Below are positions 694-51,666 of a DNA stretch of 54,675 nucleotides, piece after piece (position 1 is the stretch's first letter; each line of letters starts with the position of its first letter). The notes beneath the pieces are model-generated. The model was given only the letters and a program-made list of their open reading frames with translations. It was not told the origin of the DNA and did not search any database. Made by a program: the position numbers and the translations under genes. Source of the DNA: an uncultured Clostridium sp. (GTDB lineage Bacteria; Bacillota; Clostridia; Clostridiales; Clostridiaceae); assembly GCF_947039605.1 (NCBI RefSeq), contig NZ_CAMQZG010000024.1, forward strand, positions 1-54,675. The letters run 5' to 3'.

Positions 694-730
694 AAAAAAT
701 GCCAAATTGATATATCAATTTGGCATTTTT
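694..730 (-). terminator. Intrinsic terminator of the polysaccharide operon
   Basis: An inverted repeat with arms around TGCCAAATTGA and TCAATTTGGCA is followed on the minus strand by a run of U. The stem includes the last codons and stop of tagD, so the coding sequence runs into its own terminator. Confidence 0.85.
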
Positions 731-1137
731 AACATATTATTCAATTTATTTACACAACTTAAATCATCTTTAATCTTACTTGTCGATATTCCCTCTGTAC
801 GTTCTAAATATACTACCTCACAATATTCTTTTAAATAATCAAATTTTCCAATCCAATCATTCCCTATTACAAAAGTATCTATTTTCTCATCTACAATATC
901 ACTTAATTTCTGTTCCCACGAATTTTCAGGAATTATTTCATCTACATATCTTATTGACTCAAGTATTAATTTTCTTTGTTCATATGTAAAATGTGACTTT
1001 TTATCTTTTAATAAATTAAAATCATCTGTAGATAACCCTACTATTAAATAATCCCCTTCTGCCTTCGCTCTTTTAAGTATATTAATATGCCCATAATGCA
1101 ACAAGTCAAAAGTTCCATACGTTATAATTTTTTTCAT
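715..1137 (-). CDS. tagD: Glycerol-3-phosphate cytidylyltransferase
   Basis: A 140-aa nucleotidyltransferase, the usual length for TagD/TarD. It makes CDP-glycerol from CTP and glycerol 3-phosphate in the cytosol. The first 20 residues carry the cytidylyltransferase signature GTFDLLHYGH, with the HxGH motif at 14-17. GNDW is at about 92-95 and the second signature RTEGISTSKIK at 113-123. It is the last gene of the leftward polysaccharide operon, one base after the flippase gene. Its product is the donor for the CDP-glycerol glycerophosphotransferase two genes upstream, so glycerol phosphate is probably part of the surface polymer. The family call is very secure. Confidence 0.95.
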   Translation of the reverse strand: MKKIITYGTFDLLHYGHINILKRAKAEGDYLIVGLSTDDFNLLKDKKSHFTYEQRKLILESIRYVDEIIPENSWEQKLSDIVDEKIDTFVIGNDWIGKFDYLKEYCEVVYLERTEGISTSKIKDDLSCVNKLNNMLKMPN

Positions 1138-1138
1138 T

Positions 1139-2536
1139 TTACCATCTCCCTACTTTTATCTTTTTTATATAACTTAAAATCATTTCTCTATCAGAATTTA
1201 TAGGTGATTTTATAAAACTCATTACATAAAACCCTATTACAACTATAATATTTACAACTATCCATATCCAAAAATTAGAAATCATTGCTATACTACACAA
1301 TATTATTCCTTCCACAACTGTAAGCATTAAAATATATACAAAGCTTTTTTGTTCATATGGCCAAATATTTATATACTTTTTAACTTGAAGAGTTTTTATT
1401 ATATTAACAAAAATTTCTGAAGCTAATATTGAAAATGCAATTGTCCAAGTATATTGCGATCCTATCAATGTCATAATCACTACTGATACCAATAATTTCA
1501 ATATTCCATTTATAATTTCATTTTTAGTAAAATCCGCCATAACTAATAATGTTCCATTTGGGCCTGTAAAAGAATTGATAAATTGTGATAACATTATTAA
1601 TGAAAATATTGTCCCTCCCCCTAAATAGCCTTTTCCTAGCACGCCTAAAATCCGTTCACTATTGATCAACAATAAAAGAGCTATTGGTAAAACCAAATAA
1701 CAATTAAGTCTTGTTATTTGCTTATAAGTACTTTTTAACATAACAAAATCTTTTTCTTTCCACGCTTTTGCAAATATTGGCATACTTATTTTAGCAAATA
1801 TATCCCCCAACATTGCTACTATAGCTCCTAAAGTTAGTGAAATTGATAATACAGCTACCGTTTCAAATGTTCCAAAATCTTTTTGTAATATTTTTGAATA
1901 CCCTAAATAAATTCCATATATTATTTGTATCAAATAATAACTTGAACTTTCTTTTAATATTCTAAATTTATAAGATCCACCTTTTAAATTCTTAATTAAA
2001 AAGGGTGTTGTTGTTAATAAATAAGAAAAAATCATAACTATGATATAAATATAATACTCTTTTGATATACAGAAAAATGTAATTAAAAATAATATTAAAT
2101 TTAAAAGACTATATAAAAACTTTCTAAAAAACATCCCTTTTGATGCATTACCTGTCGATATATTATAAATTAATATCAACTCTGAAATTATCGTCAAATA
2201 AGCTAATAATATAATACAAATTTTTATATATGTAAGTCCCCCACCAATAACTCCAAATATACAACTTATCCCTAAAAAAACAACTGTATATGTACAAACA
2301 ACATCTGAAAAAAACTTTTTTTTATCTGGATATTCTTCAATTTTTTTAGGTATATACGTTTGTAATCCAAAACACATAATTATTGTTAATGTTGAAACGT
2401 ATCCTAAATAATAATTGGCTTGTCCATATTTATCCGCCCCTAAAACTTTTGCTGATATCATCTGAAATAAAAAACCTAAAATTGCTCCACTTATATTCCA
2501 AAAAAAACTTTTAAATGAACTATTTATAATCCCCAT
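1139..2536 (-). CDS. Wzx-like polysaccharide flippase (MOP superfamily)
   Basis: A 465-aa protein with about 12-14 hydrophobic segments over its whole length and an N-terminus typical of the RfbX/Wzx polysaccharide-transport group (FFWNISGAILGFLFQMISAKVLG). Such proteins move undecaprenyl-linked repeat units across the membrane. It sits in a leftward operon that also has a priming transferase, glycosyltransferases and a Wzy-like polymerase, so a Wzy-dependent polymer is the simplest reading. It begins one base after the glycerophosphotransferase gene and ends one base before tagD. Substrate specificity cannot be read from the sequence. Confidence 0.88.
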   Translation of the reverse strand: MGIINSSFKSFFWNISGAILGFLFQMISAKVLGADKYGQANYYLGYVSTLTIIMCFGLQTYIPKKIEEYPDKKKFFSDVVCTYTVVFLGISCIFGVIGGGLTYIKICIILLAYLTIISELILIYNISTGNASKGMFFRKFLYSLLNLILFLITFFCISKEYYIYIIVMIFSYLLTTTPFLIKNLKGGSYKFRILKESSSYYLIQIIYGIYLGYSKILQKDFGTFETVAVLSISLTLGAIVAMLGDIFAKISMPIFAKAWKEKDFVMLKSTYKQITRLNCYLVLPIALLLLINSERILGVLGKGYLGGGTIFSLIMLSQFINSFTGPNGTLLVMADFTKNEIINGILKLLVSVVIMTLIGSQYTWTIAFSILASEIFVNIIKTLQVKKYINIWPYEQKSFVYILMLTVVEGIILCSIAMISNFWIWIVVNIIVVIGFYVMSFIKSPINSDREMILSYIKKIKVGRW

Positions 2537-2537
2537 A

Positions 2538-3680
2538 TTAAATCCATCTTTCCTCTGCTATTTTTTTTATAAAATCATAAACTCTTTCAGAACTACAATT
2601 ATCTGAATTTTCATGAAAAATACTTTTCATTTTTGCTCTTTCTTCTGCAAAATATTCTTTATTGTTTAATAAGTGTACTATTTCTTTTTCTATATCACTT
2701 TGTATTGTAACTTTAGGTCCTGGCGTCCATACATCGTATGGTTCTAATAAAAACCCTCTTTTTTCTCTATATTCTTCTTCATCTGGATTTATAAATAATA
2801 TTGGTTTATTGGTAATTAAATAATCTAAATATATGCTTGAATAATCTGTTATCAAAATATCTGACTCACTTAAAAATTCATATAAATCACTATCATTTTC
2901 CTTTAAAATTTCACTGCTCATGAAATAAACATTTGGGATTTTCATGTTCATATATATTTTTTTATATAATTGTTCCTCAAATGGATGCATTTTTAAAATA
3001 AAATTTAATTTATTTTTAGATAAAAATGCAGAAAACTCCATAATACTAAAGCTATCTATCCCAAAAAAATTTTGTTCTTTACTATTTCCCTCATTCCTAT
3101 TTTTATACCCATTTTTAAATGTTGGAATATAAAAAATATTTTTATTGGTTATATCAAACCCTTCAAATAATCCCTCTAATTTCACAGCACTCACAGTCAT
3201 CATAAAATCATTCCTAGGATATCCTAAAATTTTATACTTATCAGCTATTTGTCCAAGCGTAGCATTTAAGATAGTATTATAAAACTTTGATGTTGAAATA
3301 AAATAGTCACAACTATCAAATATTTTTTTATCTTTGTCATTCCATTTACTACAATAATTGATATCTAATAACCCCATGCTTTTCAAAGGAATTCCGTGCC
3401 ATAATTGTATTACTTTTTGTTGCTTTTTATATCTAATCACAGAGTGTGTTGTTAGTATAATATTACTAGTTCCTATAAATATATGTTTTTTTATTTTTTC
3501 AAATATCTTATATCCTTCTTTATTATTAAAAACTCTTACTTCAAATTCAGATTTTTTTTCAAAAACTTTCCTCATTGCAGTAGAATTAGATCCTGAGAAT
3601 TCAGTTTCATCTAAAATCGTTATTCTATTTTTTTTAATCTTCATAAAAAATAAAGCCATATTCAAAATTTTATTTTTCAT
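2538..3680 (-). CDS. CDP-glycerol:poly(glycerophosphate) glycerophosphotransferase family protein
   Basis: A protein of about 380 aa related to TagB/TagF. Family marks are HGIPLKSMG, an HPFE motif in the C-terminal half, and SDILITDYSSIYLDYL near the C-terminus. It should transfer glycerol phosphate from CDP-glycerol to a membrane-linked glycan at the cytoplasmic face. An earlier in-frame ATG exists at 3713, but I chose the ATG at 3680 because GGGGGG lies 4-5 bases upstream of it; this overlaps the end of the upstream GT4 gene by 11 bases, which is normal in this operon. TagD, two genes on, supplies its donor. Whether it adds one residue or a chain is unknown; at this length a primase or decorating enzyme is more likely than a long-chain polymerase. 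Confidence 0.87.
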   Translation of the reverse strand: MKNKILNMALFFMKIKKNRITILDETEFSGSNSTAMRKVFEKKSEFEVRVFNNKEGYKIFEKIKKHIFIGTSNIILTTHSVIRYKKQQKVIQLWHGIPLKSMGLLDINYCSKWNDKDKKIFDSCDYFISTSKFYNTILNATLGQIADKYKILGYPRNDFMMTVSAVKLEGLFEGFDITNKNIFYIPTFKNGYKNRNEGNSKEQNFFGIDSFSIMEFSAFLSKNKLNFILKMHPFEEQLYKKIYMNMKIPNVYFMSSEILKENDSDLYEFLSESDILITDYSSIYLDYLITNKPILFINPDEEEYREKRGFLLEPYDVWTPGPKVTIQSDIEKEIVHLLNNKEYFAEERAKMKSIFHENSDNCSSERVYDFIKKIAEERWI

Positions 3681-4737
3681 AATTCCCCCCTGCAATATTT
3701 TCATATATCTCATTTGTTATTTTCGCTGCATTTTCCCATGTGAAATTTTCCCTAATTTCTTTTGCTAAATCCCATTTCCCCTCACTATCCCATGCTTCTT
3801 TTATTGTTTTTTCCATCTTTGTATATTCATTAGGATTACAATAAAAAGCTCTTTCTAAAAAATATTCATGTGCACACCCTATTTCAGTTGAAACAATTTT
3901 ACATCCCATTGCACCAGCTTCTAAACTTACTAACCCTGGTGTCTCTCGCTCACTCGGCAAAATGTGTAATTTACTTTTGTTATAAATATCAACTAACTCC
4001 TTTTGAGTTTTCACTCCTAAAAATTCAATTTCACTACCTTCTATCTCATCTAAACATTCATTATAGTAATCTTTGTCAATTATTCTACCAACAAGTTTCA
4101 ATGCTATTCCATTTTTTTTACACGCTTTAATCGTCAATAATGTATTTTTGCTTGGCTCTATCCTACCTACTTGGAGAGCAAAATTACGTGCACCATTAAC
4201 CTGAATACTTTCATCTTGATATATTTTTGAAATTCCATTATAAACAACATGCATTTTCCCATTTGAAATTCCAAATTTTTCATTTATTAATTTTATTTCA
4301 GAATTTGAATTTGGTAAAATAACATCTACCTTATTAAGAATTTTTTTCATCCTTTTATATCTCATCATTAAATTTTTTATTTTTAATATTTTAATATTTT
4401 CTATTCCAATTATCTTACTTGCCAATATTGCTTTTTTACTATACCCTTTTTCATTTTTTATATTTTCTTCTTCAAAATCCCACCAGATAGGTGATAAAAC
4501 TAATTTTGCTTTTGTTTTTTTAATTTTTTCAACTTCCTTTAATGTAAACTTATCAGTTTGCATATTAAAAAAATGAATAACATCAAATTTTTTATAATAG
4601 CTAATACTATTTTCCCCTAATGAAACTTGAATATCATTACCGAGTAATTTTAATTCCTTCATAGTATTTTCCATTTGCATAGTATCTCCACCATTTAATG
4701 TATACGCATTTTTTCTATTTACAAATAAAATTTTCAT
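3670..4737 (-). CDS. Glycosyltransferase family 4 (GT-B fold)
   Basis: A 355-aa glycosyltransferase of the GT4/RfaB type. The N-terminal half has the loop LNGGDTMQMENTMKELKLLG. The C-terminal domain begins with ALQVGRIEPSKN and contains the conserved stretch LPSERETPGLVSLEAGAMGC, in which the glutamates bind the nucleotide-sugar. It is cytosolic or membrane-associated and should add one sugar of the repeat unit. The start overlaps the polymerase stop by one base (ATG/TAA), showing tight translational coupling. Donor and acceptor cannot be told from the sequence. Confidence 0.88.
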   Translation of the reverse strand: MKILFVNRKNAYTLNGGDTMQMENTMKELKLLGNDIQVSLGENSISYYKKFDVIHFFNMQTDKFTLKEVEKIKKTKAKLVLSPIWWDFEEENIKNEKGYSKKAILASKIIGIENIKILKIKNLMMRYKRMKKILNKVDVILPNSNSEIKLINEKFGISNGKMHVVYNGISKIYQDESIQVNGARNFALQVGRIEPSKNTLLTIKACKKNGIALKLVGRIIDKDYYNECLDEIEGSEIEFLGVKTQKELVDIYNKSKLHILPSERETPGLVSLEAGAMGCKIVSTEIGCAHEYFLERAFYCNPNEYTKMEKTIKEAWDSEGKWDLAKEIRENFTWENAAKITNEIYENIAGGNYEK

Positions 4738-5915
4738 TAGTTCTCACTCTTACTCCTTTTTACCTTTAAATATATTTCTAATAATATTGGAAATATTAAT
4801 TGAAATGACATTCCTGAAAAATTAACCATATTTGAAAATGCACATAATGCTACTAGATTACATAACATTGCAATAGCAATAACTCTTAGTGGATTATCAT
4901 CTGATATAAAATTCATATACAGGTATGATCCACCTATTAATATTGCAAACATTAACCAAACACCTAGCCAGCCTAAATAATAATATGCCCCCGTATAAAC
5001 TGTAGATACTGTTAAATGTGGTGTTATTAACGGAATTTTTTTTTCTGATTTATTTTTCTCATAATTTTTAAATACTCTTTTTGCTATAAAATCAATAGTA
5101 ACTTCATTAGATAAAAATTTATAGAAATTTCCACCATTTATTTTAGGCTTATGTTCTATTATCGTATTTTGCAAATTAGCAAGTGGTGATGATATATATA
5201 GATATCCCCAAAAATATTCTTTTGGAATTATAGATTTTTTAAATTCCTCTCGTGCTCCACCAACACTCATAATATATGAACTATCTAATTTGTTATTTGC
5301 TCCGTTAATTGAATTATTTCGTATATTTCCATAAACTCCAAACCCAAATAACCCTACTAAACATACAATAATTAATTTTATAAAATTCTTTTTATAAAAC
5401 TCCCACTTTCCATATTTAAGAATAAATATTATACCTGAACCTATTACTATATTCATAATCATACCTCTAGAAACTAGTAGAAAAGCTGGTAAAAAAGTTA
5501 TTGTATATTTAAGAAAGTTTTTAATTGTTTTCTCTGAAATAAATATGTGGAATAAATATATTCCTAAAAATATATTAAATGTATATATAAAAACATGCAC
5601 CATAGGTATTCCAGAAAACTCTAAATATTTCTTCATATCAAACATAGGAATATATCCTGCATAGATAAAATCTGCTACAAAAAGTAATGAATTAATAGCT
5701 AATGCTATATCTCCTATTCTATTTTTTTTTATATCTTTATACTCAAATTTATTTTCTTTCGACATCTTTAATGATATGTATCCACAAATTAAGGAACTTA
5801 CACCTAAAAAAAAGACCAAAGAAAATGTTAATTCCGGATATAAATTAGACCAATTAAATATATAAAGTCCTAATGCAGATCCAAAAGCTAAAATATATAT
5901 TATAAAAGGATTCAT
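4737..5915 (-). CDS. Wzy-like O-antigen/capsule polymerase (oligosaccharide repeat unit polymerase)
   Basis: A 392-aa polytopic membrane protein with about 10 hydrophobic segments and a larger polar loop between roughly residues 195 and 300. That is the pattern of Wzy/EpsG-type polymerases, which join lipid-linked repeat units on the outer face of the membrane. Sequence conservation is low in this family, so position counts: it lies between two glycosyltransferase genes in an operon that also has a flippase and a priming transferase, and the operon has no other polymerase. It starts 13 bases after the upstream GT2. The call rests on topology and context. Confidence 0.75.
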   Translation of the reverse strand: MNPFIIYILAFGSALGLYIFNWSNLYPELTFSLVFFLGVSSLICGYISLKMSKENKFEYKDIKKNRIGDIALAINSLLFVADFIYAGYIPMFDMKKYLEFSGIPMVHVFIYTFNIFLGIYLFHIFISEKTIKNFLKYTITFLPAFLLVSRGMIMNIVIGSGIIFILKYGKWEFYKKNFIKLIIVCLVGLFGFGVYGNIRNNSINGANNKLDSSYIMSVGGAREEFKKSIIPKEYFWGYLYISSPLANLQNTIIEHKPKINGGNFYKFLSNEVTIDFIAKRVFKNYEKNKSEKKIPLITPHLTVSTVYTGAYYYLGWLGVWLMFAILIGGSYLYMNFISDDNPLRVIAIAMLCNLVALCAFSNMVNFSGMSFQLIFPILLEIYLKVKRSKSEN

Positions 5916-5928
5916 ATAATTAAACCTC

Positions 5929-6927
5929 CTATTTTATTAAATGTCTTATAGACTTTATTTTATTTTTTTCTTTTAAATTATTACTTTTTTGATTCATCAA
6001 TTTAAATTTTAATTTTGCTTCTTTTCTAAATTTAAATATAAATTGCTCAAATATTAATGAATATATCAGAAGCATTAATTGTCTTTTATTGATTTTAAAT
6101 TTATTTTCAATAATAAAATCCGAATTTTTATTTTTCTCTAACATCATTAAATGATTTCTATAAGAAATTCCCCTTAAAAATTCTGATTGTTTTTTTCTAT
6201 GTTTTATAAACTTAAATATACCTTTTTCACTTCGACCTAAAGCACGTCCATGATATGCAATTGCTTCTGGATAATAAATGTTTTTTTGTCCTATAAGATT
6301 TAATCTCCATGATAAATCTACATCTTCTTTATATGCAAAAAAATCTTCATCAAAATATTCATCTTTATATTTAACTAAATCTAAGGCATTTCTTCTATAC
6401 ATTGGTGCTGCACCACAAACGCCAAATACTTCTTCTGTTTTATTATATTGACCTTCATCTAACTCATTTTGACCTCGATCAATACACCTTGTACTTTTAT
6501 ACATTTCTATTCCAGCACTATCAATATAATTAAGTTTTTTATTATTACTAAAATCATACTTCAAAAGTTTTCCTGTTATTGCTCCAACTTCTAAATTATT
6601 GCTCATATAAAATGCTAATTTTTCTACAAAATCCTTTTCCATTACTATGTCTGGATTTATTATCATTATGAATTCACCTGTAGATAACTTTATACCTTGA
6701 TTTGCAGCCCCTGCATATCCATTATTTATATCATTTTTAATTAGAAGAATATTCTTATTAGAATATTCTTCTTCCATATACTTAAATGAACCATCTTTTG
6801 ATTCATTATCAATAAAAATTATTTCTAGTTCCTCATATGTTTGCTCAAATATAGAATTTAAACATCTTGATAAATAATCCTTGTTATTATAATTAATTAT
6901 TATTAAACTCACTAATTTTTTTTTCAT
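5929..6927 (-). CDS. Glycosyltransferase family 2 (rhamnosyltransferase-like)
   Basis: A 332-aa GT2 of the WbbL/RfbF type. The start is SLIIINYNNKDYL, the DXD-equivalent appears as INPDI near residue 95, and a typical EDVDLSWR motif occurs in the C-terminal half (the ED pair contains the likely catalytic base). The C-terminal tail is basic and hydrophobic, fitting membrane association. Its ATG directly abuts the rfbB stop, so the pair is translationally linked. Next to a complete dTDP-rhamnose set, rhamnosyl transfer is the most likely activity, though this is inferred from context. Confidence 0.88.
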   Translation of the reverse strand: MKKKLVSLIIINYNNKDYLSRCLNSIFEQTYEELEIIFIDNESKDGSFKYMEEEYSNKNILLIKNDINNGYAGAANQGIKLSTGEFIMIINPDIVMEKDFVEKLAFYMSNNLEVGAITGKLLKYDFSNNKKLNYIDSAGIEMYKSTRCIDRGQNELDEGQYNKTEEVFGVCGAAPMYRRNALDLVKYKDEYFDEDFFAYKEDVDLSWRLNLIGQKNIYYPEAIAYHGRALGRSEKGIFKFIKHRKKQSEFLRGISYRNHLMMLEKNKNSDFIIENKFKINKRQLMLLIYSLIFEQFIFKFRKEAKLKFKLMNQKSNNLKEKNKIKSIRHLIK

Positions 6928-7977
6928 CTATTTATACATCTCTTCATAATATTTTTGATAGTTACCTGAAGTTATATTTTCCATCCATTTCTTATTATCT
7001 AGATACCATTTAATAGTCTTTTTAATTCCAACTTCAAATGTTGTTTCTGGATACCATCCAAGTTCTTCTTTTATTTTTGTTGGATCTATCCCATATCTTC
7101 TATCATGACCTTTTCTATCTTCAACATATTTAATTAAAGTTTCTGTTATCTCTTCATTTACATTTTCATTTAAATACCCTATAACAGTTTTAACTATCTG
7201 AATATTTGTTCTTTCATTATGACCACCAACATTGTAAACTTCACCTAGTCTACCATTATTAATTACCATATCTATTGCTTTTGCATGATCTTCTACATAT
7301 AACCAATCTCTTATATTAAGTCCATCACCGTATACTGGTAAATTTTTTAACTCTAAGCAATTATTAATTAAAAGTGGTATTAATTTTTCTGGGAATTGGA
7401 ATGGTCCATAGTTATTTGAACATCTTGTTATATTCACTGGCATTTTATAAGTATCTGCATAAGCTTGTACTAATAAATCTGACCCTGCTTTACTTGCTGA
7501 GTATGGGCTATGTGGGTCTATTGGTGTAGTTTCCATAAAGAACCCTTCATCCCCAAGTGAACCATATACTTCGTCAGTTGAAACATGCAAGAACTTAACT
7601 CCTTCTTTCCATCCTTCAATAGTTTCCCAAGACTTTTTAGCACAGTTTAATAAATTATTAGTTCCCATTACATTTGTTTGTACAAATACTTCTGGATTTT
7701 CTATACTTCTATCAACATGTGACTCTGCTGCAAAGTGTGCTACATAATCAATATCATATTTTTCAAATAAACTTGCTACAAGTTCTTTATCACAGATATC
7801 TCCTTGAACAAAGATATGTCTTTCATCACTTTCTATTGATTTAAGATTTTCTAAGTTCCCTGCATATGTTAATTTATCTAAATTTATTATTTTTATATCC
7901 TCATACTTGTTAAGCATATATAAAACAAAGTTTGATCCTATAAATCCTGCACCACCTGTTACTAAATATGTTTTCAT
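6928..7977 (-). CDS. rfbB: dTDP-glucose 4,6-dehydratase (RmlB)
   Basis: A 349-aa extended short-chain dehydrogenase, the standard RmlB length. The NAD-binding loop is TGGAGFIGSN at 7-16, the active-site region reads STDEVYGSLG, and the catalytic pair is in PYSASKAGSD (YxxxK). It converts dTDP-glucose to dTDP-4-keto-6-deoxyglucose, the second step to dTDP-L-rhamnose. In this operon the order of transcription is rfbA, rfbC, rfbD, rfbB. No odd features were seen. Confidence 0.97.
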   Translation of the reverse strand: MKTYLVTGGAGFIGSNFVLYMLNKYEDIKIINLDKLTYAGNLENLKSIESDERHIFVQGDICDKELVASLFEKYDIDYVAHFAAESHVDRSIENPEVFVQTNVMGTNNLLNCAKKSWETIEGWKEGVKFLHVSTDEVYGSLGDEGFFMETTPIDPHSPYSASKAGSDLLVQAYADTYKMPVNITRCSNNYGPFQFPEKLIPLLINNCLELKNLPVYGDGLNIRDWLYVEDHAKAIDMVINNGRLGEVYNVGGHNERTNIQIVKTVIGYLNENVNEEITETLIKYVEDRKGHDRRYGIDPTKIKEELGWYPETTFEVGIKKTIKWYLDNKKWMENITSGNYQKYYEEMYK

Positions 7978-7990
7978 AAATTACTTCCCC

Positions 7991-8872
7991 CTACTTACTA
8001 GCCTTATTTATAAATGATTTTAATGCTTCTTTCCAATCCCTCATATCATCACCAATAGTTTCTCTAAGCATTTTATTATCTAATGATGAATATTCTGGTC
8101 TTTTTGCTGGTCTTGGAAACTCTTCTGTTGTGCATGGACTAACTTTACAATTTAATTTTGATAATTTCATTATTTCACTTGCAAAGTCATACCATGAACA
8201 TTCTCCTTTACCAGTACAATGATATACTCCATAATTTTCAGTTTCTATCATTCTAAGTATGTGATAAGCTAAGTCATTTGCATGTGTTGGATTTCCTCTT
8301 TGGTCATCAACAACCATCAAACTTTCTTTTGTAGCTCCAAGATTTCTCATTGTATAAACAAAGTTATTTCCAACATATCCGTAAAGCCATGCTGTTCTTA
8401 CTATAAAGTGCTTACTACAAAATTCACTTGTGAATTTCTCTCCATCAAGTTTTGATCTTCCATATTCACTTTGAGGATTCAAATTAGAATCTTCTGTAAA
8501 TGGTACATTTCCTATACCTTCAAATACATAATCAGTTGAAACCTGAACAAACTTTGCTCCTACAACTTCACATGCTTGTGCTAAGTGTCTAGGTCCTACA
8601 GCATTAATTTCATATGCTATATTCTTACACTCTTCACACTTATCAACATTTGTATATGCGGCACAATTTATTACTACATCTGGTTTTTCTTCTATAATAA
8701 ATTCTTTAATTTGTAATTCATTTGTTATATTAAGCTTATCCACATCTACAGCTATAACTTCTGCATTTACTATCTTTTCTGAAACTTCTCTGATTTCTGA
8801 ATAACCTTTTCTTATAATATCTTGAAGTTCATTTCCTAATTGTCCATTTGAACCAGTTATCAATATTTTCAT
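7991..8872 (-). CDS. rfbD: dTDP-4-dehydrorhamnose reductase (RmlD)
   Basis: A 293-aa short-chain reductase. The nucleotide-binding motif is GSNGQLG at residues 7-13, with INCAAYTNVDKCE and the catalytic YGRSK. VSTDYVFEG is the family mark. It reduces dTDP-4-keto-L-rhamnose to dTDP-L-rhamnose, the last step of the pathway, using NAD(P)H in the cytosol. It is separated by 13 bases from rfbB downstream and by 34 bases from rfbC upstream. Confidence 0.96.
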   Translation of the reverse strand: MKILITGSNGQLGNELQDIIRKGYSEIREVSEKIVNAEVIAVDVDKLNITNELQIKEFIIEEKPDVVINCAAYTNVDKCEECKNIAYEINAVGPRHLAQACEVVGAKFVQVSTDYVFEGIGNVPFTEDSNLNPQSEYGRSKLDGEKFTSEFCSKHFIVRTAWLYGYVGNNFVYTMRNLGATKESLMVVDDQRGNPTHANDLAYHILRMIETENYGVYHCTGKGECSWYDFASEIMKLSKLNCKVSPCTTEEFPRPAKRPEYSSLDNKMLRETIGDDMRDWKEALKSFINKASK

Positions 8873-8906
8873 AATTTTATCCCCTAAAACACTAATTTAA
8901 TTTCAC

Positions 8907-9476
8907 CTATTTATTATAAAGAAATGGTACTTCCAATTCTTTTAAAGATTTTTGTTTTTTATCTTTTTCAGATAATAAAATTTCTTCTATTCCATCAAGT
9001 GGCCATTCTATATTAACGTCACTATCATTCCAAATTAATCCACTATCATACTCTGGAGCATAAAAATCTGTACACTTATAATTAAAAGTTGCATACTCTG
9101 ATAAAACTAAAAATCCATGTGCAAATCCTTCTGGAACATAAAATTGCTTTTTGTTTTGAGCTGTTAAAACAATTCCTTCCCACATTCCATATGTAGGTGA
9201 ACCATTTCTTAAATCAACAGCTACATCAAAAACTTCTCCCTCAGTAACTCTTACAAGTTTCCCCTGCGTATGTTTAGTTTGAAAATGTAACCCTCTTAAA
9301 ACACCTTTTTTAGATTTTGATTCATTATCCTGAACAAATTTCATAGTAAGACCTGCTTCATTAAAGCTACTCTCATTATATGATTCCATAAAGTATCCTC
9401 TTTCATCTCCAAATACTTTAGGCTCTATAATATATAAATCTTTTATTTTAGTTTCTATAAAATTAAAATTACTCAA
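8907..9476 (-). CDS. rfbC: dTDP-4-dehydrorhamnose 3,5-epimerase (RmlC)
   Basis: A 189-aa cupin-fold epimerase of the usual length. The signature GVLRGLHFQ (catalytic His) is near residue 60, followed by KLVRVTEGEVFDVAVDLR and FAHGFLVLSE. It epimerises C3 and C5 of dTDP-4-keto-6-deoxyglucose. It lies between rfbA and rfbD, completing the four-gene dTDP-L-rhamnose pathway. Confidence 0.97.
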   Translation of the reverse strand: MSNFNFIETKIKDLYIIEPKVFGDERGYFMESYNESSFNEAGLTMKFVQDNESKSKKGVLRGLHFQTKHTQGKLVRVTEGEVFDVAVDLRNGSPTYGMWEGIVLTAQNKKQFYVPEGFAHGFLVLSEYATFNYKCTDFYAPEYDSGLIWNDSDVNIEWPLDGIEEILLSEKDKKQKSLKELEVPFLYNK

Positions 9477-9489
9477 CTTTAATCCCCCT

Positions 9490-10383
9490 CTAAACAGTTA
9501 CTATTTTTTTAGCTTCTATTTCTTCAACTATTTCTACTAAATACTTTCCATATCCAGTTTTCATTAATGGTTTTGCAAGTTCTAGAACATCTTTATCTGA
9601 TATCCAGCCTTTTCTATATGCAATCTCTTCAAGACATGCTATATATGTACCTTGTGTATTCTGAACTGCTTCTACAAAATTTGATGCTTGAAGCATTGAT
9701 GCATGTGTTCCTGTATCAAGCCATGCCATCCCTCTACCAAGTAAATCAACTCTTAAAGTTTGTTCTTCCATATAAATTCTATTTAAATCTGTAATCTCAA
9801 GCTCACCTCTAACAGATGGTTTAAGTCCTTTAGCTTTTTCTACAACACTATTATCATAGAAGTATAAACCTGGAACTGCATATTTTGATTTTGGATTTTC
9901 TGGTTTTTCTTCTAATGAAGTAACTTGTCCATTTTCACTAAACCCAACAACTCCAAATGCCCTAGGATCTTGAACATAATATCCAAATACCATAGCACCT
10001 TTCTCAAGTTCTGCTGCTTCTTTTAAATGAGAACTGAAATTCTGACCATAAAATATGTTATCTCCAAGTATTAATGCAACATTATCATCACCGATAAATT
10101 CATCTCCAATAATAAAAGCCTCTGCTAAACCATTCGGTTGTTCTTGTACCTTATATTCTATTTTAAGTCCTAATTCTGAACCTGTTCCAAACAATTCCTT
10201 AAAATTTGGTAAATCTCTCTCTGTTGAAATTATTAAAATATCTTTTATCCCAGCAAGCATTAAAACTGACATTGGATAGTAAATCATCGGTTTGTCATAA
10301 ATTGCTGTCATCTGCTTTGACATTGCCTTTGTTACGGGATAAAGTCTTGTACCTGATCCACCTGCTAATATAATACCTTTCAT
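9490..10383 (-). CDS. rfbA: Glucose-1-phosphate thymidylyltransferase (RmlA)
   Basis: A protein of about 297 aa. It opens with [16 protein letters not shown], the nucleotide-binding signature, and contains the conserved region [11 protein letters not shown] and [11 protein letters not shown]. It makes dTDP-glucose from dTTP and glucose 1-phosphate, the first and usually feedback-controlled step. An in-frame ATG nine codons upstream (10410) lacks a ribosome binding site and adds a non-family extension, whereas GAAGGAGG lies 9 bases before the ATG at 10383, so I use the latter. The upstream GT2 ends 16 bases earlier. Confidence 0.96.
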
Positions 10384-10399
10384 ATTCAATATCCTCCTT

Positions 10400-11314
10400 C
10401 TATTCTCCATATACTTTTTTACTTAATGATGATTTATTCACAATTATTTTTGATAAGTTATTATAACGTTTGCCTAACTGACTACCAATTAATCTTGCTG
10501 CAAAGTTAGGCATAATATTTATTGTTACTTTATAATTCTTTTCTTCTATAGATCTTTTCAAAGCATGTTTAGCCATCGCTAGCCCACTTTCACTACTTTT
10601 ATATTTTAAAAACTGTGAATTCTGCTTAAAAAATACTCCAGTATCAAAATATCTCTTATAAAGTTCTTTTAATGTAAATGTATGTGAGTGATATACTTCT
10701 GAATCTGAACAATATTTTATTTTATATCCAGATGTTATAAGCTTTTCTGCTAAATACATATCCTCATTTATCAAAAGTCTTTTATTATCATAACCTTTAA
10801 CTTTTCTATATACATCATCTCTAACCGCTGATGATGCATCTGAATAGAAAAATGTTAATAATCCCATCTTAGCTATATCAGCTTTTGAGACAACTCGCGA
10901 AGTTGCTGGATAATTTTTTTCTCTTATATATTTCTCTATTGTCTCATTTTCAGGAAGTTGTCTGCTAAATGAAGCTTCACACTCCCCTTCAATAATGGGA
11001 TTCACTAAATTCTCTAACCATTTATCATCTTTTATTTTTATATCCTGAGAAATAAAAACTATAATATTATTATTTTCTAATTCCATTGCTGCTTTTTCTC
11101 TAGTTTGACTATGTGAAAATTCTTTCGCTGTTATTTTTTTATAATTTGACTCTAATTCTTTTAAAATATTCTCGGTGTTATCTTTTGATTCTGTCAAAAT
11201 ATACTTTATAAAAATCTTATATTCTTTATCTACTTTTTGGTCTAATAACTTTTCATTTAAATCTCTTATGTATCCACTAGCATTGTAAAGTGGACAAATA
11301 ATTGTTATATTCAC
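10400..11314 (-). CDS. Glycosyltransferase family 2
   Basis: A 304-aa GT2 with an N-terminal nucleotide-sugar fold ([16 protein letters not shown]), a DXD-like SQD in VFISQDIK near residue 95, and [12 protein letters not shown] as the likely acceptor/base region. The C-terminal 70 residues are basic, fitting membrane contact. It is the second gene of the polysaccharide operon, two bases after the priming transferase, so it probably adds the second sugar of the repeat unit. Closeness to rfbA suggests a rhamnosyltransferase; the sequence alone does not decide the donor. Confidence 0.86.
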
Positions 11315-11316
11315 CT

Positions 11317-11976
11317 TTACATTGCTCCTTCTTTTTTAATAACAGATACTACAGTTTGTAATATTATTTTTATATCCATCATGAAACTTCTGTTATCAAT
11401 ATAATACATATCCATTTGCACCCTTTCTTCATAAGTAGTATCACTTCTTCCATTTGCTTGCCAATGACCAGTTAATCCAGGCATTACCGAAAAAAATTTA
11501 TCTGCAAATTGACCATATTTTTCAACTTCAGCTTGTACTATTGGTCTTGGACCTACTACTGACATATCACCTTTTAATATGTTTACTAGTTGTGGTAATT
11601 CATCTAAACTAGTCTTTCTTAAAAAACTACCTATCTTAGTTATTCTAGGATCATTCTCTAACTTAAAATTCTTTTCAAATTCTGCTTTTTGCTCTGGAGT
11701 AAAGTTTTCTAAAACTTCTTGTGCATTTATTACCATAGTTCTAAATTTATAAACACTAATTTCTTTTCCATTCTTCCCCATTCTTTTATGACCAAATAAT
11801 GCCGCTCCCTTTGAATCTAATCTTATTAAAATAATTAATAAGATAAATATTGGCGTAAACATTATAATAGCTATCCCTGATGAAATAACATCAAAAGTTC
11901 TTTTTAAAAATAAATACCCTTTACGTTCATTTACCTTACACACATTCATATTTCCCTTAACATTTAAATTTTGCAT
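11317..11976 (-). CDS. Priming undecaprenyl-phosphate sugar-1-phosphate transferase (WcaJ/RfbP type)
   Basis: A 219-aa short-form polyisoprenyl-phosphate hexose-1-phosphate transferase. It has a single membrane hairpin at about residues 28-50 (FDVISSGIAIIMFTPIFILL), then the catalytic domain with YKFRTM, LRKTSLDELPQLVNILKGDM and VGPRP, ending PGLTGHWQANGRS. It loads the first sugar phosphate onto undecaprenyl phosphate, starting each repeat unit at the cytoplasmic face. It is the first gene of the operon; GGGGGAG lies 4 bases before the ATG. An alternative ATG at 11949 also has a plausible site, but the longer form is preferred. Galactose or glucose phosphate is a typical substrate; which one cannot be told. 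Confidence 0.92.
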   Translation of the reverse strand: MQNLNVKGNMNVCKVNERKGYLFLKRTFDVISSGIAIIMFTPIFILLIILIRLDSKGAALFGHKRMGKNGKEISVYKFRTMVINAQEVLENFTPEQKAEFEKNFKLENDPRITKIGSFLRKTSLDELPQLVNILKGDMSVVGPRPIVQAEVEKYGQFADKFFSVMPGLTGHWQANGRSDTTYEERVQMDMYYIDNRSFMMDIKIILQTVVSVIKKEGAM

Positions 11977-47656: not shown

Positions 47657-48568
47657 ATGAATTTTACCAATGAAGAAGAAAATAGCAATAATATTCAAAA
47701 AAAATCTTTTATTCATAACTTACTTAAACTAATGAGACCAAAACAATGGGTGAAAAATCTCTTTGTTGTCGGACCTCTTATTTTTTCAGTCAGCTTTTTA
47801 GAGCCTAAAAAAATAGGATATAGTCTTTTAGCTTTTGTATTATTTTGTTTAATTTCATCTACAGTATATATAATGAATGATATTGTTGATGTTGATAAAG
47901 ATAGAATACATCCAAAGAAAAGGCTTAGGCCAATAGCTAGTGGTGCAATTAAAGTTCCTGCTGCTATCGTATCTTTCTTAGTTTTACTTACAATCAGTTT
48001 AGTTGGATCTTATCTGATTAATTTTGAATTGTTTATTGTAATAATACTTTACTTTATCAATAATGTACTTTACTCTTTCAAAATAAAACATATAGTTATT
48101 GTTGATGTTATATCAATTGCTATTGGGTTTATTTTAAGAGTTGTCGCTGGTGGAATTGCTATTGATGTAAAACTATCAGGTTGGATTTTACTTTGTACTT
48201 TCTTTATCTCTTTATTCCTTGGCTTTGAAAAAAGAAAGAATGAGATTATAAAATTACAAGGAAATGCAAACGAACATAGAAAAATTCTTGATGATTATTC
48301 TGAGGATTTACTAAATGAAATATCAAATATATCTATACCTTGCACACTTGTAAGTTATGCAATGTATACTTTTATAGGGCATCCAAATCCTTATATGATG
48401 ATAACTAATTTATTTGTAGTTTATGGATTATTTAGATATAAATATCTTGTTATAAAAAAAGGTGAAGGTGGTAGTCCAACTGAAGCACTTATCACTGATA
48501 AACCTCTTATCGCGAATATTATTTTATGGGCCATTACAAGTATGATTATACTTTTATGGTTTAGTTAA
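47657..48568 (+). CDS. UbiA-type polyprenyl-phosphate phosphoribosyltransferase (DPPR synthase-like)
   Basis: A 303-aa UbiA-superfamily membrane protein with about 8-9 segments. The family opening LMRPKQWVKNLFVVGPLIF and the first Asp motif NDIVDVDKDRIHPKKRLRPIASG (74-96) match decaprenyl-phosphate phosphoribosyltransferases, as does DVISIAIGFILRVVAGG. Such enzymes join phosphoribose from PRPP to polyprenyl phosphate in the inner leaflet. It is first in a five-gene operon with a glycosyltransferase, a phosphatase and flippase-like genes. No quinone or heme genes are near, which argues against a ubiquinone/heme role. A DprE epimerase is not seen here. Confidence 0.85.
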   Translation: MNFTNEEENSNNIQKKSFIHNLLKLMRPKQWVKNLFVVGPLIFSVSFLEPKKIGYSLLAFVLFCLISSTVYIMNDIVDVDKDRIHPKKRLRPIASGAIKVPAAIVSFLVLLTISLVGSYLINFELFIVIILYFINNVLYSFKIKHIVIVDVISIAIGFILRVVAGGIAIDVKLSGWILLCTFFISLFLGFEKRKNEIIKLQGNANEHRKILDDYSEDLLNEISNISIPCTLVSYAMYTFIGHPNPYMMITNLFVVYGLFRYKYLVIKKGEGGSPTEALITDKPLIANIILWAITSMIILLWFS

Positions 48569-48580
48569 TAGGAGGCTTCA

Positions 48581-50167
48581 ATGGAAAGATTAAAGGATAA
48601 TAAAATTTCATTTTACTCAATACTTATATCTTTTATGTTTTTAATATACATAGGAAGTATTTTTATAGGTAGTACACTTCTTTTTGCAATACACGTGTCT
48701 ATGACTAGCTTTAACTTTTTTGTTTTCCCTATCATAGCTATGTTTATTTCAAAACTGTTCCTTGATAAGGATAAATCAAATGTTACATGGAAATTTATGA
48801 TTTTCTCACTTATATTCTTTTTTATTAGTGCTGCACTTTTAGCATGGATAAATAATATAATTTGGGACTACTCATACGATTCTATGGCTTACCACCAAGA
48901 GGCTGTTATGGCTATAAAAAATGGATGGAATCCATTTTATCAATCACATATACCAATGAATATTTGGGTAATGCACTATGCAAAAGCATCTTGTGTATTT
49001 GCAGCAAGTATTTTTAAAATTACTAATAGAATTGAAAGTGCAAAAATACTTTCTTCATTCTTACCATTAATACTACTTGTATTAAGTTTTGGTACATTCT
49101 ATTTAATAACAAAGAAAAGAAAAATCTTATCAGCATTTGCTGCTCTATTATTAGTTCTTAACCCAGTTGTACTTGGGCAATCTTTTACTTATTATGTAGA
49201 TTCAATGCTTGGTATTTATGTTATCTTCCTTATAATAAATTTAATATTAATATTATTCTATAAGGATTTAATGTTCTTTAAATATCTAACACTTGTGAAT
49301 GTAGCAATATTCCTTTCAAATATAAAATTTACAGGACTTGCCTATGCAGGAGTAATTCTTTTAGCATTCTTAATTTGTAGTTTCTTCTTTAATTCAAAGA
49401 AATACAATATAAGACTTCTAATATTCCTTATTGCTAGTCTTGCTATAACTGTATGCGTTGTAGGATTCAACCCATACATTACAAATACTATTAATAATGG
49501 AAATCCTCTTTACCCACTTGCTGGCACAGGGAAAATAAATATAATGACTTCTAATACACCATTAGACTATAGATATGATGGACAGTTTGAACAATTTTAT
49601 AAATCTATGATAGCAGTACCTTCAAACACAAATCCAGATGGTAAATCTGCAACATCTCTTAGAGAACTTTTTGAAGTTAACTCTCATGTTCTCACTTTCT
49701 ATTCTGGTGTTGATGCTAGAATAAGAGGATTTGGAGTTTATTCTATCATATTCCTACCTCTATCATTTATAGGTATGCTTTATCTACTTGCATCATGTAG
49801 AAATAAGAAAGCTCTTATTTACAGTGTTCTAACACTTGTATTTACTATTGGAACTTTCCTTGCTGCCGGTGCTTTTTGGTGGGCTAGATATATAAACTTT
49901 GTTTGGCTTATCCCTGTTGGAGTTGGAACTCTGATGATGATAAAAAAATCTAAAATATCTAGAATTATTGGATTATTGCTTTTAATTTTAATTTTTGTAA
50001 ATTCAGCAATGATACTTCCAACAATGATTTATTTTAAAATCAATCAATCAAACAGAGTGAAAAAATATATATTTACAAAACCTTTAGTTATTTATCAAAA
50101 TAACTTTGAACAATCATTCATAAATAAGGCTAAAGAATTTGATTTGAAATATACAATAGTAAAATAA
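48581..50167 (+). CDS. GT-C fold membrane glycosyltransferase (polyprenyl-phosphate-sugar dependent)
   Basis: A 528-aa protein with about 11-13 membrane segments. The first outside loop contains WDYSYDSMAYHQEA (residues 95-108) and IKNGWNPFY, like the acidic metal/lipid-binding loop of ArnT/PMT/GT39-type enzymes. The C-terminal region has an extracellular loop and a terminal soluble tail of about 40 residues. These enzymes use polyprenyl-phosphate sugars on the outer face. It sits between the DPPR synthase-like gene and the phosphatase, so it probably transfers the pentose to a surface polymer or protein. A family number cannot be given by eye. Confidence 0.75.
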   Translation: MERLKDNKISFYSILISFMFLIYIGSIFIGSTLLFAIHVSMTSFNFFVFPIIAMFISKLFLDKDKSNVTWKFMIFSLIFFFISAALLAWINNIIWDYSYDSMAYHQEAVMAIKNGWNPFYQSHIPMNIWVMHYAKASCVFAASIFKITNRIESAKILSSFLPLILLVLSFGTFYLITKKRKILSAFAALLLVLNPVVLGQSFTYYVDSMLGIYVIFLIINLILILFYKDLMFFKYLTLVNVAIFLSNIKFTGLAYAGVILLAFLICSFFFNSKKYNIRLLIFLIASLAITVCVVGFNPYITNTINNGNPLYPLAGTGKINIMTSNTPLDYRYDGQFEQFYKSMIAVPSNTNPDGKSATSLRELFEVNSHVLTFYSGVDARIRGFGVYSIIFLPLSFIGMLYLLASCRNKKALIYSVLTLVFTIGTFLAAGAFWWARYINFVWLIPVGVGTLMMIKKSKISRIIGLLLLILIFVNSAMILPTMIYFKINQSNRVKKYIFTKPLVIYQNNFEQSFINKAKEFDLKYTIVK

Positions 50168-50174
50168 ACTAACT

Positions 50175-50203
50175 AATCACTTGAGTATCTTACTCAAGTG
50201 ATT
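50175..50203 (+). terminator. Hairpin between GT-C and HAD phosphatase genes
   Basis: Perfect 12-bp stem AATCACTTGAGT / ACTCAAGTGATT with a 5-base loop followed by ATATTTATACTTT. Without an unbroken U run it may only attenuate. The phosphatase is 88 bases from the GT-C gene, so readthrough or an own promoter is needed. Confidence 0.5.
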
Positions 50204-50255
50204 ATATTTATACTTTAATATAAAACTACTAAAGACAAAATGGAGGCATTTACTT

Positions 50256-50891
50256 ATGATATCTAAAAAAGTTGCAATATTTGATATTGATAAAACAATA
50301 ATCAGTGGTGATTCAATGTTTCATCTTCTGCAATATACAAAAATAAAATATCCAGCCTCAAAAGCAAAGCTCCCTTCACTTTATATAAAACTTGTTTTAT
50401 ATAAACTAGGGCTTATTAATACACAAAAAGCTAAAGAAGCTATGTTCTATACTTTCAACTATTTAAATAGTGATGATTTGAAATCTTTTTATAATTCTAT
50501 TTTAAAAGAAAAAATCTTTTCAAATGCACTCGATAAAATGAAAGTTCTTAAAAACAATGGATACTTTATTCTTCTTGTTTCAGCTTCTCCTGAAGCTTAT
50601 CTTAAATACTTTGAAGATGAAGAATATGTTAATTTTGTCATTGGTACAAAATTTAAATATGCTCAAAATAAAGTTACTAATCAAATGGATGGTATAAATT
50701 GCAAGGGTGATGAAAAGGTTGTGAGAATAAACACTTATCTAAAATCTCAAAATATATCAATTGATAAAGAAAATTCTGTAGCTTTCTCTGATTCACTATC
50801 TGATACACCTATGTTTAACCTTGTAAAAAAAGCTTATCTTATAAACTTCAAGAAAAATAATGATACTTATGAAGTATTGAAATGGAAATAG
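50256..50891 (+). CDS. HAD-IB (SerB-like) phosphatase
   Basis: A 211-aa HAD hydrolase of subclass IB. Motif I is FDIDKT (nucleophile Asp10, acid Asp12), motif II is LVSASPEAYL, and motif IV reads AFSDSLSDTPMF. The cap is helical. The family includes phosphoserine phosphatase and membrane-lipid-linked phosphatases. Here the neighbours make polyprenyl-phospho-ribose 5-phosphate, so removal of the 5-phosphate is a natural role; in mycobacteria a different phosphatase fold is thought to do this. That role is inferred. Confidence 0.85.
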   Translation: MISKKVAIFDIDKTIISGDSMFHLLQYTKIKYPASKAKLPSLYIKLVLYKLGLINTQKAKEAMFYTFNYLNSDDLKSFYNSILKEKIFSNALDKMKVLKNNGYFILLVSASPEAYLKYFEDEEYVNFVIGTKFKYAQNKVTNQMDGINCKGDEKVVRINTYLKSQNISIDKENSVAFSDSLSDTPMFNLVKKAYLINFKKNNDTYEVLKWK

Positions 50892-50899
50892 GTGATAAT

Positions 50900-51238
50900 A
50901 TGAAAAGTACAAACTTAACAAAAGGAATTATTCTTATAGTACTAGCAGCTCTTTGCACATCTTTTGGACAACTTTTTTGGAAAATGGGGGTAGGTGGTAA
51001 CATACTTTTAATATTGCTTGGCTTTGTCTTATATGGTGTTGGTGCCTTATCTATGATAGTCGCTTTTAAATTCGGAAATTTATCAATACTTCACCCTCTT
51101 ATGTGTGTTGGATATATTTTTGCACTTATAAATGGAACACTATTCCTTAATGAGCAAATAACTACTAATCATACAATTGGAATAGTTATTATAATTATTG
51201 GAGTTATCTTTATAGCAAGGGGTGAAAAAAATGAATAA
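50900..51238 (+). CDS. SMR/EamA-like half-flippase, first subunit
   Basis: A 112-aa protein with four membrane segments, the size of small multidrug resistance proteins and of ArnE/ArnF. The N-terminal segment has AALCTSFGQLFWKMG with the lipid-phosphate flippase-like GQLxWK motif. AGGTGAT before the ATG at 50900 favours this start over an in-frame ATG at 50882. It overlaps the second subunit by 8 bases. The pair probably flips polyprenyl-phosphate-pentose across the membrane, as ArnE/ArnF do for aminoarabinose lipid. Confidence 0.8.
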   Translation: MKSTNLTKGIILIVLAALCTSFGQLFWKMGVGGNILLILLGFVLYGVGALSMIVAFKFGNLSILHPLMCVGYIFALINGTLFLNEQITTNHTIGIVIIIIGVIFIARGEKNE

Positions 51239-51563
51239 AGCATATTTATTGTTCCCTATAATGACATTATTTGGAGCACTCGGTGCCTTTTATTTTAAAA
51301 AAGGCACAGATACTTTAACTGGAATTTTATCTTTATTTACCAATTGGAAAATTTATGTTGGTGGCTTTTTCTATGTAACAGCTGCAATTTTAAATATTAT
51401 TGCATTAAAATATTTACCTTATAGTGTTGTAATTCCACTAACTTCAATAACTTATGTGTGGACTTTAATTATTGCAAGACTTGCACTTGGTGAAAAAATA
51501 ACAATTAAAAAAATTATTGGAATAGTGCTAATATTAATCGGTTCTATCTATGTAGCCATATAA
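51231..51563 (+). CDS. SMR/EamA-like half-flippase, second subunit
   Basis: A 110-aa protein with four membrane segments. Marks are LFGALGAFYFKKGTDTL in segment 1 and PYSVVIPLTSITYVWTLIIARLALGEKI in segments 3-4, the typical SMR end. The start at 51231 is chosen for AAGGGGTG six bases upstream. Overlap with the first subunit points to a heterodimer of antiparallel halves. A terminator with an 18-bp stem follows. Confidence 0.8.
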   Translation: MNKAYLLFPIMTLFGALGAFYFKKGTDTLTGILSLFTNWKIYVGGFFYVTAAILNIIALKYLPYSVVIPLTSITYVWTLIIARLALGEKITIKKIIGIVLILIGSIYVAI

Positions 51564-51580
51564 ATAGTATCAATTCTCCT

Positions 51581-51620
51581 AAAATATACAGAATTATTTA
51601 ACAATAATTCTGTATATTTT
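51581..51620 (+). terminator. Terminator of the polyprenyl-phospho-pentose operon
   Basis: Perfect 18-bp stem AAAATATACAGAATTATT / AATAATTCTGTATATTTT, 4-base loop. Confidence 0.9.
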
Positions 51621-51666
51621 ATTAATTTTATGGTAAAATAAACATATAACTTACTCTTAATAGAGT

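Follow-up and report, generated by a model that had tools for sequence, protein, structure and literature searches.

The window analysed here, a stretch of 54,675 nucleotides of an uncultured Clostridium sp. (contig NZ_CAMQZG010000024.1; genome G000 in our numbering), carries towards its right end five same-strand open reading frames (ORFs) that encode a UbiA-type enzyme, a large polytopic membrane protein, a HAD-IB phosphatase and two small SMR/EamA-type transporters (table 1), and each of the five has a stretch resembling a ribosome-binding site on its 5' side. An earlier note on this DNA had read these five co-directional genes as a single operon for decorating the cell surface with a lipid-linked pentose. 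The genes lie where that note placed them; the single operon is less secure, since a hairpin of 14 pairs separates gene 2 from gene 3 (-18 kcal/mol, z -7.6; 0 of 200 shuffles equal it), so the five genes may form two transcripts, which would count against one functional unit. The terminator-like hairpin beyond the last gene is absent from the list made by a simple hairpin scan. For the two transporter genes the starts given in table 1 appear more likely than those of the longest ORFs, because the stretches resembling ribosome-binding sites are found there.

Table 1. Features of the pentose cassette, its surroundings and related loci (G and L numbers are our genome and locus numbers).
Feature	Position	Strand	Evidence or remark
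Gene 1, predicted polyprenyl-phosphate 5-phosphoribosyltransferase (DPPR-synthase type UbiA), 303 aa	47657..48568	+	NF008977, NF008978, PDB 8j8j, motifs
Gene 2, polytopic membrane protein, 528 aa, probable GT-C of unclassified family	48581..50167	+	
Gene 3, HAD-IB phosphatase, cassette subtype DxDxTxxxxDS, predicted 5'-phosphatase of lipid-linked ribose-5-P	50256..50891	+	TIGR01490
Gene 4, putative SMR/EamA half-flippase 1	~50900..51238	+	longest ORF from 50882; start by AGGTGAT stretch
Gene 5, putative SMR/EamA half-flippase 2	~51231..51563	+	longest ORF from GTG 51222; start by AAGGGGTG stretch
Hairpin, 14 pairs, possible bidirectional terminator or attenuator between genes 2 and 3	50174..50204	.	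folding, shuffles
Terminator-like hairpin 3' of last gene	51580..51621	+	-18.6 kcal/mol, z -8.2
Cassette flanks: CrcB (minus strand), BFD-like protein, DUF5050 protein			Pfam
Surface-polymer locus, possible acceptor: cytidylyltransferase-like, Wzx-like, TagF-like, GT4, two GT2, RmlB/D/C/A-like, initiating sugar transferase	715..11976	-	Pfam; 36 kb upstream of cassette
Synthase, HAD and SMR pair within six genes	window, G201, G199 (Clostridium sp. metagenome-assembled genome, L095), G013, G003, Niameybacter massiliensis		
HAD-GtrA fusions near or next to DPPR synthase	L085:5965-6948, L088:4156-5121, L086, L087, L089, L154		
spoVS-type loci (38)	L039, L040, L046-L049, L051-L062, L064-L070, L072-L078, L080-L082, L084, L090, L091		
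HAD paralogues with NCxGxEK and E[ST] replacing DS	L175, L176, L178-L195		
DUF2334 (PF10096) proteins beside cassette	L045:6770-8134, L050:5380-6756		

Gene 1 scores 272.5 against NF008977 (cut-off 234) and 233.2 against NF008978 (cut-off 207), both models of decaprenyl-phosphate phosphoribosyltransferase, and fails a third model, NF008976 (172.1, cut-off 474). Its best relative of solved structure is Rv3806c (8j8j; E 8e-40), the homology being nearly full-length, and the next solved enzyme, another UbiA protein, follows at 7e-6. When the contacts to phosphoribosyl pyrophosphate (PRPP) and the lipid phosphate that are named in the passages of PMC10994848 used here are compared by hand on the PDB alignment, 9 of the 11 Rv3806c residues are identical in gene 1 (R22, K28, Y70, K87, R90, Y138, K143, K191 and K208); Q135 is replaced by N and Y157 by F, and the same passages report Phe at the latter position in some mycobacteria. 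The protein also has the motifs NDxxDxxxD (at residue 74) and RxxE (at 193), and residues of the first matter for the activity of ORF15 in Citrobacter, according to the parts of PMC11127046 on which we draw. Models of the quinone, heme and chlorophyll UbiA clades score far below their cut-offs, and the other UbiA gene of this genome is MenA-like, itself below the menA cut-off (57.1 against 102.15). Judged by its sequence, gene 1 is a polyprenyl-phosphate phosphoribosyltransferase, in agreement with the earlier assignment of a phosphoribosyl-type UbiA protein.

Gene 3 matches TIGR01490 (HAD-IB; 121.2, cut-off 98.3) with the motifs DIDKT and SDSLSD, as had been foreseen, and does not match NF006088 at E 1. 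Proteins of its kind are common: 185 of 206 genomes of the family contain a match at E 1e-6, and since such paralogues are so widespread, the wider HAD family would have another, general role. The window genome holds no second match to the window protein at that threshold and just two TIGR01490 proteins above cut-off. The motif NCxGxEK, tried as a mark of lipid-phosphatase function, was rejected when 20/20 inspected non-cassette paralogues proved to carry it too. The signature DxDxTxxxxDS separates the two groups better; it is present in 22/22 cassette HADs and 0/20 of the same non-cassette copies, which have E[ST] in place of DS and which are those among 30 loci returned by the search rather than a random sample of the 185 matching genomes. 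In a tree of these proteins, to which two further cassette-type rows (G170 and Lactococcus) were added, one branch parts cassette from non-cassette copies, with a support of only 80.

The synthase is present at E 1e-20 in 60 of the 206 family genomes and above the NF008977 cut-off in 38/391 genomes of the class, family members included. We assembled 102 synthase loci, taking one from each genome, counting the window among them and leaving out one duplicate; they cover every other family genome with a match except G130 (58 of 59) and, from outside the family, 38 genomes with matches of at least 170 bits. A co-directional HAD gene lies no more than four genes from the synthase in 22/102 loci, which come from two widely separated branches of the tree, and it is directly downstream of the synthase in 18/102. 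Synthase, HAD and SMR pair occur together within six genes in 6/102 loci (table 1). Six of the 22 HAD-bearing loci encode the HAD and a GtrA domain as one fused protein (recognised by Pfam in two and by our own profile in six), a fusion that ties the phosphatase to a flippase; in L088 it is parted from the synthase by other genes. We noticed no such fusion in the parts of PMC11127046 used here, and a search of open-licence papers turned up none that deals with it. Outside this group, the Lactococcus plasmid pLLF27D (L165, NZ_PP589792.1) carries, as annotated, an unknown protein, the synthase, a HAD-IB protein and GtrA in that order, within a polysaccharide locus that has flippase, O-antigen-ligase-like and LCP genes.

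These neighbourhoods bear on whether the window contains one system at all. It could instead hold two units, the UbiA and membrane protein genes having come by chance to lie next to an unrelated HAD gene and SMR pair; the hairpin between genes 2 and 3 would suit such an arrangement, as would the abundance of the HAD family and the genome G170, where one contig holds the synthase with a transferase-like gene and a different contig holds a HAD-SMR-SMR trio. Against it stand the 18 loci with the HAD directly downstream of the synthase, the HAD-GtrA fusions near synthase genes, and the placement of the cassette-type HADs on their own side of the (modestly supported) branch. Moreover, when the best 13 HAD matches were made into loci (L166-L178), the DS subtype accounted for ten, each in a synthase-bearing genome and nine of them already known as synthase neighbours, whereas the remaining three, of the other subtype, are in genomes (G115, G116 and G117) with no detected synthase. 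A chance neighbourhood of HAD and synthase is unlikely because G000 has so few TIGR01490 proteins (a judgement rather than a formal statistic), and we consider two unrelated units quite improbable. The split in G170, together with the varying transferases described below, is better read as suggesting that a cassette is built of two exchangeable blocks, a reading which also fits the position of the hairpin in the window.

Genes 4 and 5 encode EamA-family half-size transporters (30.1 and 40.0, cut-off 28.2). The earlier description of them as an ArnE/ArnF-like pair of SMR half-flippases holds as far as the EamA matches go; the resemblance to ArnE and ArnF itself is far under the cut-offs of the models (25.1 and 22.6 against 99, 21.2 and 22.2 against 92).

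Gene 2 is the least certain member of the cassette. It has no Pfam match, no match among PDB sequences and no NCBIfam match above cut-off (one below it looks like chance), so the GT-C glycosyltransferase proposed for it earlier is our surmise rather than a database assignment. Crude hydropathy gives 18 overlapping regions, which merge by eye into about eleven helices. In the 12 members of its family D96, D100, K249, R380 and R436 are invariant, and because the conserved D96, D100 and H105 of a loop after the early helices, together with the conserved motifs KF(T) and WWARY, resemble a GT-C enzyme, we take it to be probably one. Alternatively, the 528-residue protein could be a polymerase, another glycosyltransferase or some other membrane protein, with the pentosyltransferase encoded elsewhere. 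Several results weigh in that direction: no GT-C profile matches the protein; 4/12 members match TgpA_N (best 3e-7), a transglutaminase-associated N-terminal domain that does not favour GT-C; a profile of the 12 members finds three matches in the PDB at E 0.44 or worse, none of them credible; and hhalign gives a probability of 0.7% for kinship with the PMT_2 group. The family is found in 3/206 family genomes and 9/391 class genomes, and it does not appear to be tied to pentose, since 5/9 of the latter (G576, G467, G433, G413 and G483) have no detected synthase, so that their proteins would need another donor. Furthermore, the transferase beside the synthase varies among cassettes, being of PMT_2 type in G013, G199 and G003 and of GtrII type in Niameybacter, with the window family in five genomes. 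On the other side, gene 2 or a relative of it adjoins the synthase in half of the ten genomes holding the family (G000, G201, G005, G243 and G270), the loop with its acidic and aromatic residues is conserved, and one of the 12 members matches PMT_2 below cut-off (20.7 against 26.1), so we regard a function other than pentosyl transfer as unlikely. Among viral contigs 0/231 pattern matches were confirmed, and the 533-residue gene of Lactococcus has no detectable kinship to gene 2. The gene order that had been expected to be conserved is thus kept in part: HAD and SMR pair recur with the synthase, while the kind of transferase changes.

The sugar is suggested by what the cassette lacks. As had been noted before, no epimerase gene lies in it or directly adjoins it (Pfam scan), and the draft genome yielded no DprE1, the sole FAD_binding_4 protein found there being MurB (379.2, cut-off 259); ribofuranose is therefore the simplest product. 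The same pathway might nevertheless use an epimerase encoded elsewhere, which would turn lipid-linked ribose into xylofuranose or arabinofuranose ahead of the flipping step. In Citrobacter O2 an SDR epimerase alone decides between ribose and xylose (parts of PMC11127046 used here), and SDR proteins (RmlB- and RmlD-like, for example) are present in the window genome. That genome is a draft (97.58% complete, 3.65% contamination). In the cassettes of Niameybacter, G199, G013 and G003 we saw no epimerase-like gene either, going by the order of the genes, the starts of the sequences and those proteins that were scanned rather than by a full SDR scan. We rate a distant epimerase as distinctly unlikely, and ribofuranose remains our preferred sugar.

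The acceptor is most likely a teichoic-acid-like or rhamnose-containing glycan, to go by gene context. The surface-polymer locus of the window (table 1), in which the Rml names are inferred from Pfam families and the Wzx-like match is below cut-off (24.9 against 28.2), includes a TagF-like glycerophosphotransferase gene that is the sole PF04464 match of the genome. Three sulfatase-family genes, which we take to be LtaS-like, lie elsewhere in the genome. The Niameybacter massiliensis cassette is within an rml/ABC-transporter locus (rml names from sequence starts) with an ABC-2 permease and an LtaS-like sulfatase-family protein by Pfam, the LtaS model itself being far under its cut-off (46.8 against 970). 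In G005 the protein before the transferase and synthase genes has a PF04464 part (an 884-residue frame in a longer locus), and in G201 (L034) two window-family transferases, a PMT_2 protein, a GT2 and two sulfatase-family proteins surround the cassette.

Taken together, we think it likely that the cassette makes polyprenyl-phosphate-beta-D-ribofuranose and uses it as a donor outside the membrane. Gene 1 would load phosphoribose onto the lipid, by analogy with Rv3806c and Citrobacter ORF15; the HAD-IB phosphatase would take off the 5-phosphate, as its family, recurrent adjacency and fusion suggest; the two SMR half-transporters, as an ArnE/ArnF-like pair, may flip the lipid; and the 528-residue protein, in view of its context, would transfer the pentose to a surface polymer. 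Each of the four steps that had been claimed (loading, dephosphorylation, flipping, transfer) thus has a candidate gene. Weighing against this pathway are the possession of NCxGxEK by the common paralogue, so that the motif does not prove the chemistry of the HAD protein, and the incomplete linkage of the parts: 10/22 HAD-bearing loci have no SMR or GtrA gene within six genes (some are cut by contig ends), and 49/102 loci have no HAD, SMR or GtrA in that range, both counts being made with our own profiles. In addition, 38/102 loci have spoVS within three genes upstream of the synthase and none of these has a HAD within four genes, although an SMR gene is near in 27 of the 38. In these spoVS-type loci spoVS was assigned by sequence search, and the neighbours ftsK, rimO, pgsA, recA and rny were named from lengths and sequence starts. 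Many of them have a membrane protein of about 415-445 aa after the synthase, without a Pfam match in the one tested, and in L084 (G176) the synthase copy is broken.

Two observations concern synthase relatives more loosely. MT837543.1, an unannotated sequence of 6646 bases from a phage collection, encodes a relative of DPPR synthase with 37% identity. In two genomes a DUF2334 protein lies beside the cassette (table 1); both proteins bear a Cu_amine_oxidN1-like stretch, which is above cut-off only in the L045 protein.

The earlier note knew of no described clostridial system of this make-up; as a kind, however, it was already in print. Kelly et al. 2024 (PMC11127046; the statements here follow the parts of it that we used) describe a three-component pentofuranose pathway with a HAD phosphatase in Citrobacter youngae O1 and O2; the synthase, phosphatase and transferase steps were shown there and the flippase was predicted only. 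The likeness extends to a UbiA-type phosphoribosyltransferase acting on polyprenyl phosphate, a HAD enzyme for the 5-phosphate, a small EmrE/ArnE-like flippase (called MATE family there) and, with gene 2 as the probable counterpart, a GT-C transferase, and the O1 system, which has no epimerase, adds ribofuranose. The window cassette likewise has genes for a polyprenyl-phosphate phosphoribosyltransferase (PPPRS), a HAD phosphatase and a candidate flippase together. The Citrobacter HAD and UbiA parts are one protein, whereas the window has a stand-alone HAD, a paired flippase and a clostridial host; the Citrobacter transferase is a GT136 enzyme with a carbohydrate-binding domain, whereas no classification was found for the window family. 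That paper calls the pathway widespread and names Gram-positive candidates; the string "clostridi" occurs nowhere in its main text, and our searches of open-licence papers turned up no clostridial system of this kind. So far as these parts of the source go, the kind of pathway has been known since 2024, and what we describe is a clostridial variant with parts not previously described together.

Older systems share single features with it. The mycobacterial decaprenylphosphoryl-arabinose pathway (Rv3806c, Rv3807c, DprE1/DprE2, Rv3789, Emb/Aft) has a homologous first enzyme, but the window genome has no detected DprE1, a HAD protein stands where Rv3807c acts (Rv3807c is not of the HAD family, according to the same parts of PMC11127046), and a gene pair takes the place of the single proposed exporter Rv3789. 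The ArnE/ArnF flippase of undecaprenyl-P-aminoarabinose is similarly encoded by two overlapping half-size SMR-like genes; its similarity to the window pair is weak, the best scores for the two models being those given above. GtrA/GtrB/Gtr and Arn glycosylation also combine a lipid-linked sugar, a small flippase and an external transferase, and GtrII and GtrA proteins are seen beside relatives of the window synthase; there a GtrB-type enzyme makes the donor out of a nucleotide sugar, whereas in the window a UbiA protein would make it from PRPP.

A broader picture, which we offer tentatively and as a whole, is that clostridia have a modular, epimerase-free ribofuranosylation of teichoic-acid-like or rhamnose polymers, composed of two exchangeable blocks (synthase with transferase, and phosphatase with flippase, the latter sometimes as a HAD-GtrA fusion) and employing, in the window, a new GT-C family, and in addition a second form, linked to spoVS and lacking a nearby HAD, which recurs as a chromosomal locus across 38 Clostridiaceae genomes. 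That second form presents a puzzle in the fate of the 5-phosphate; if it is real, it implies either an unknown or distant phosphatase or the transfer of ribose-5-phosphate itself. The combination of DPPR synthase, DS-type HAD and either an SMR pair or a HAD-GtrA fusion gives a gene signature by which such systems may be found, and the cassette predicts that clostridial surface polymers would carry ribofuranose, or another pentofuranose, derived from lipid-linked ribose.

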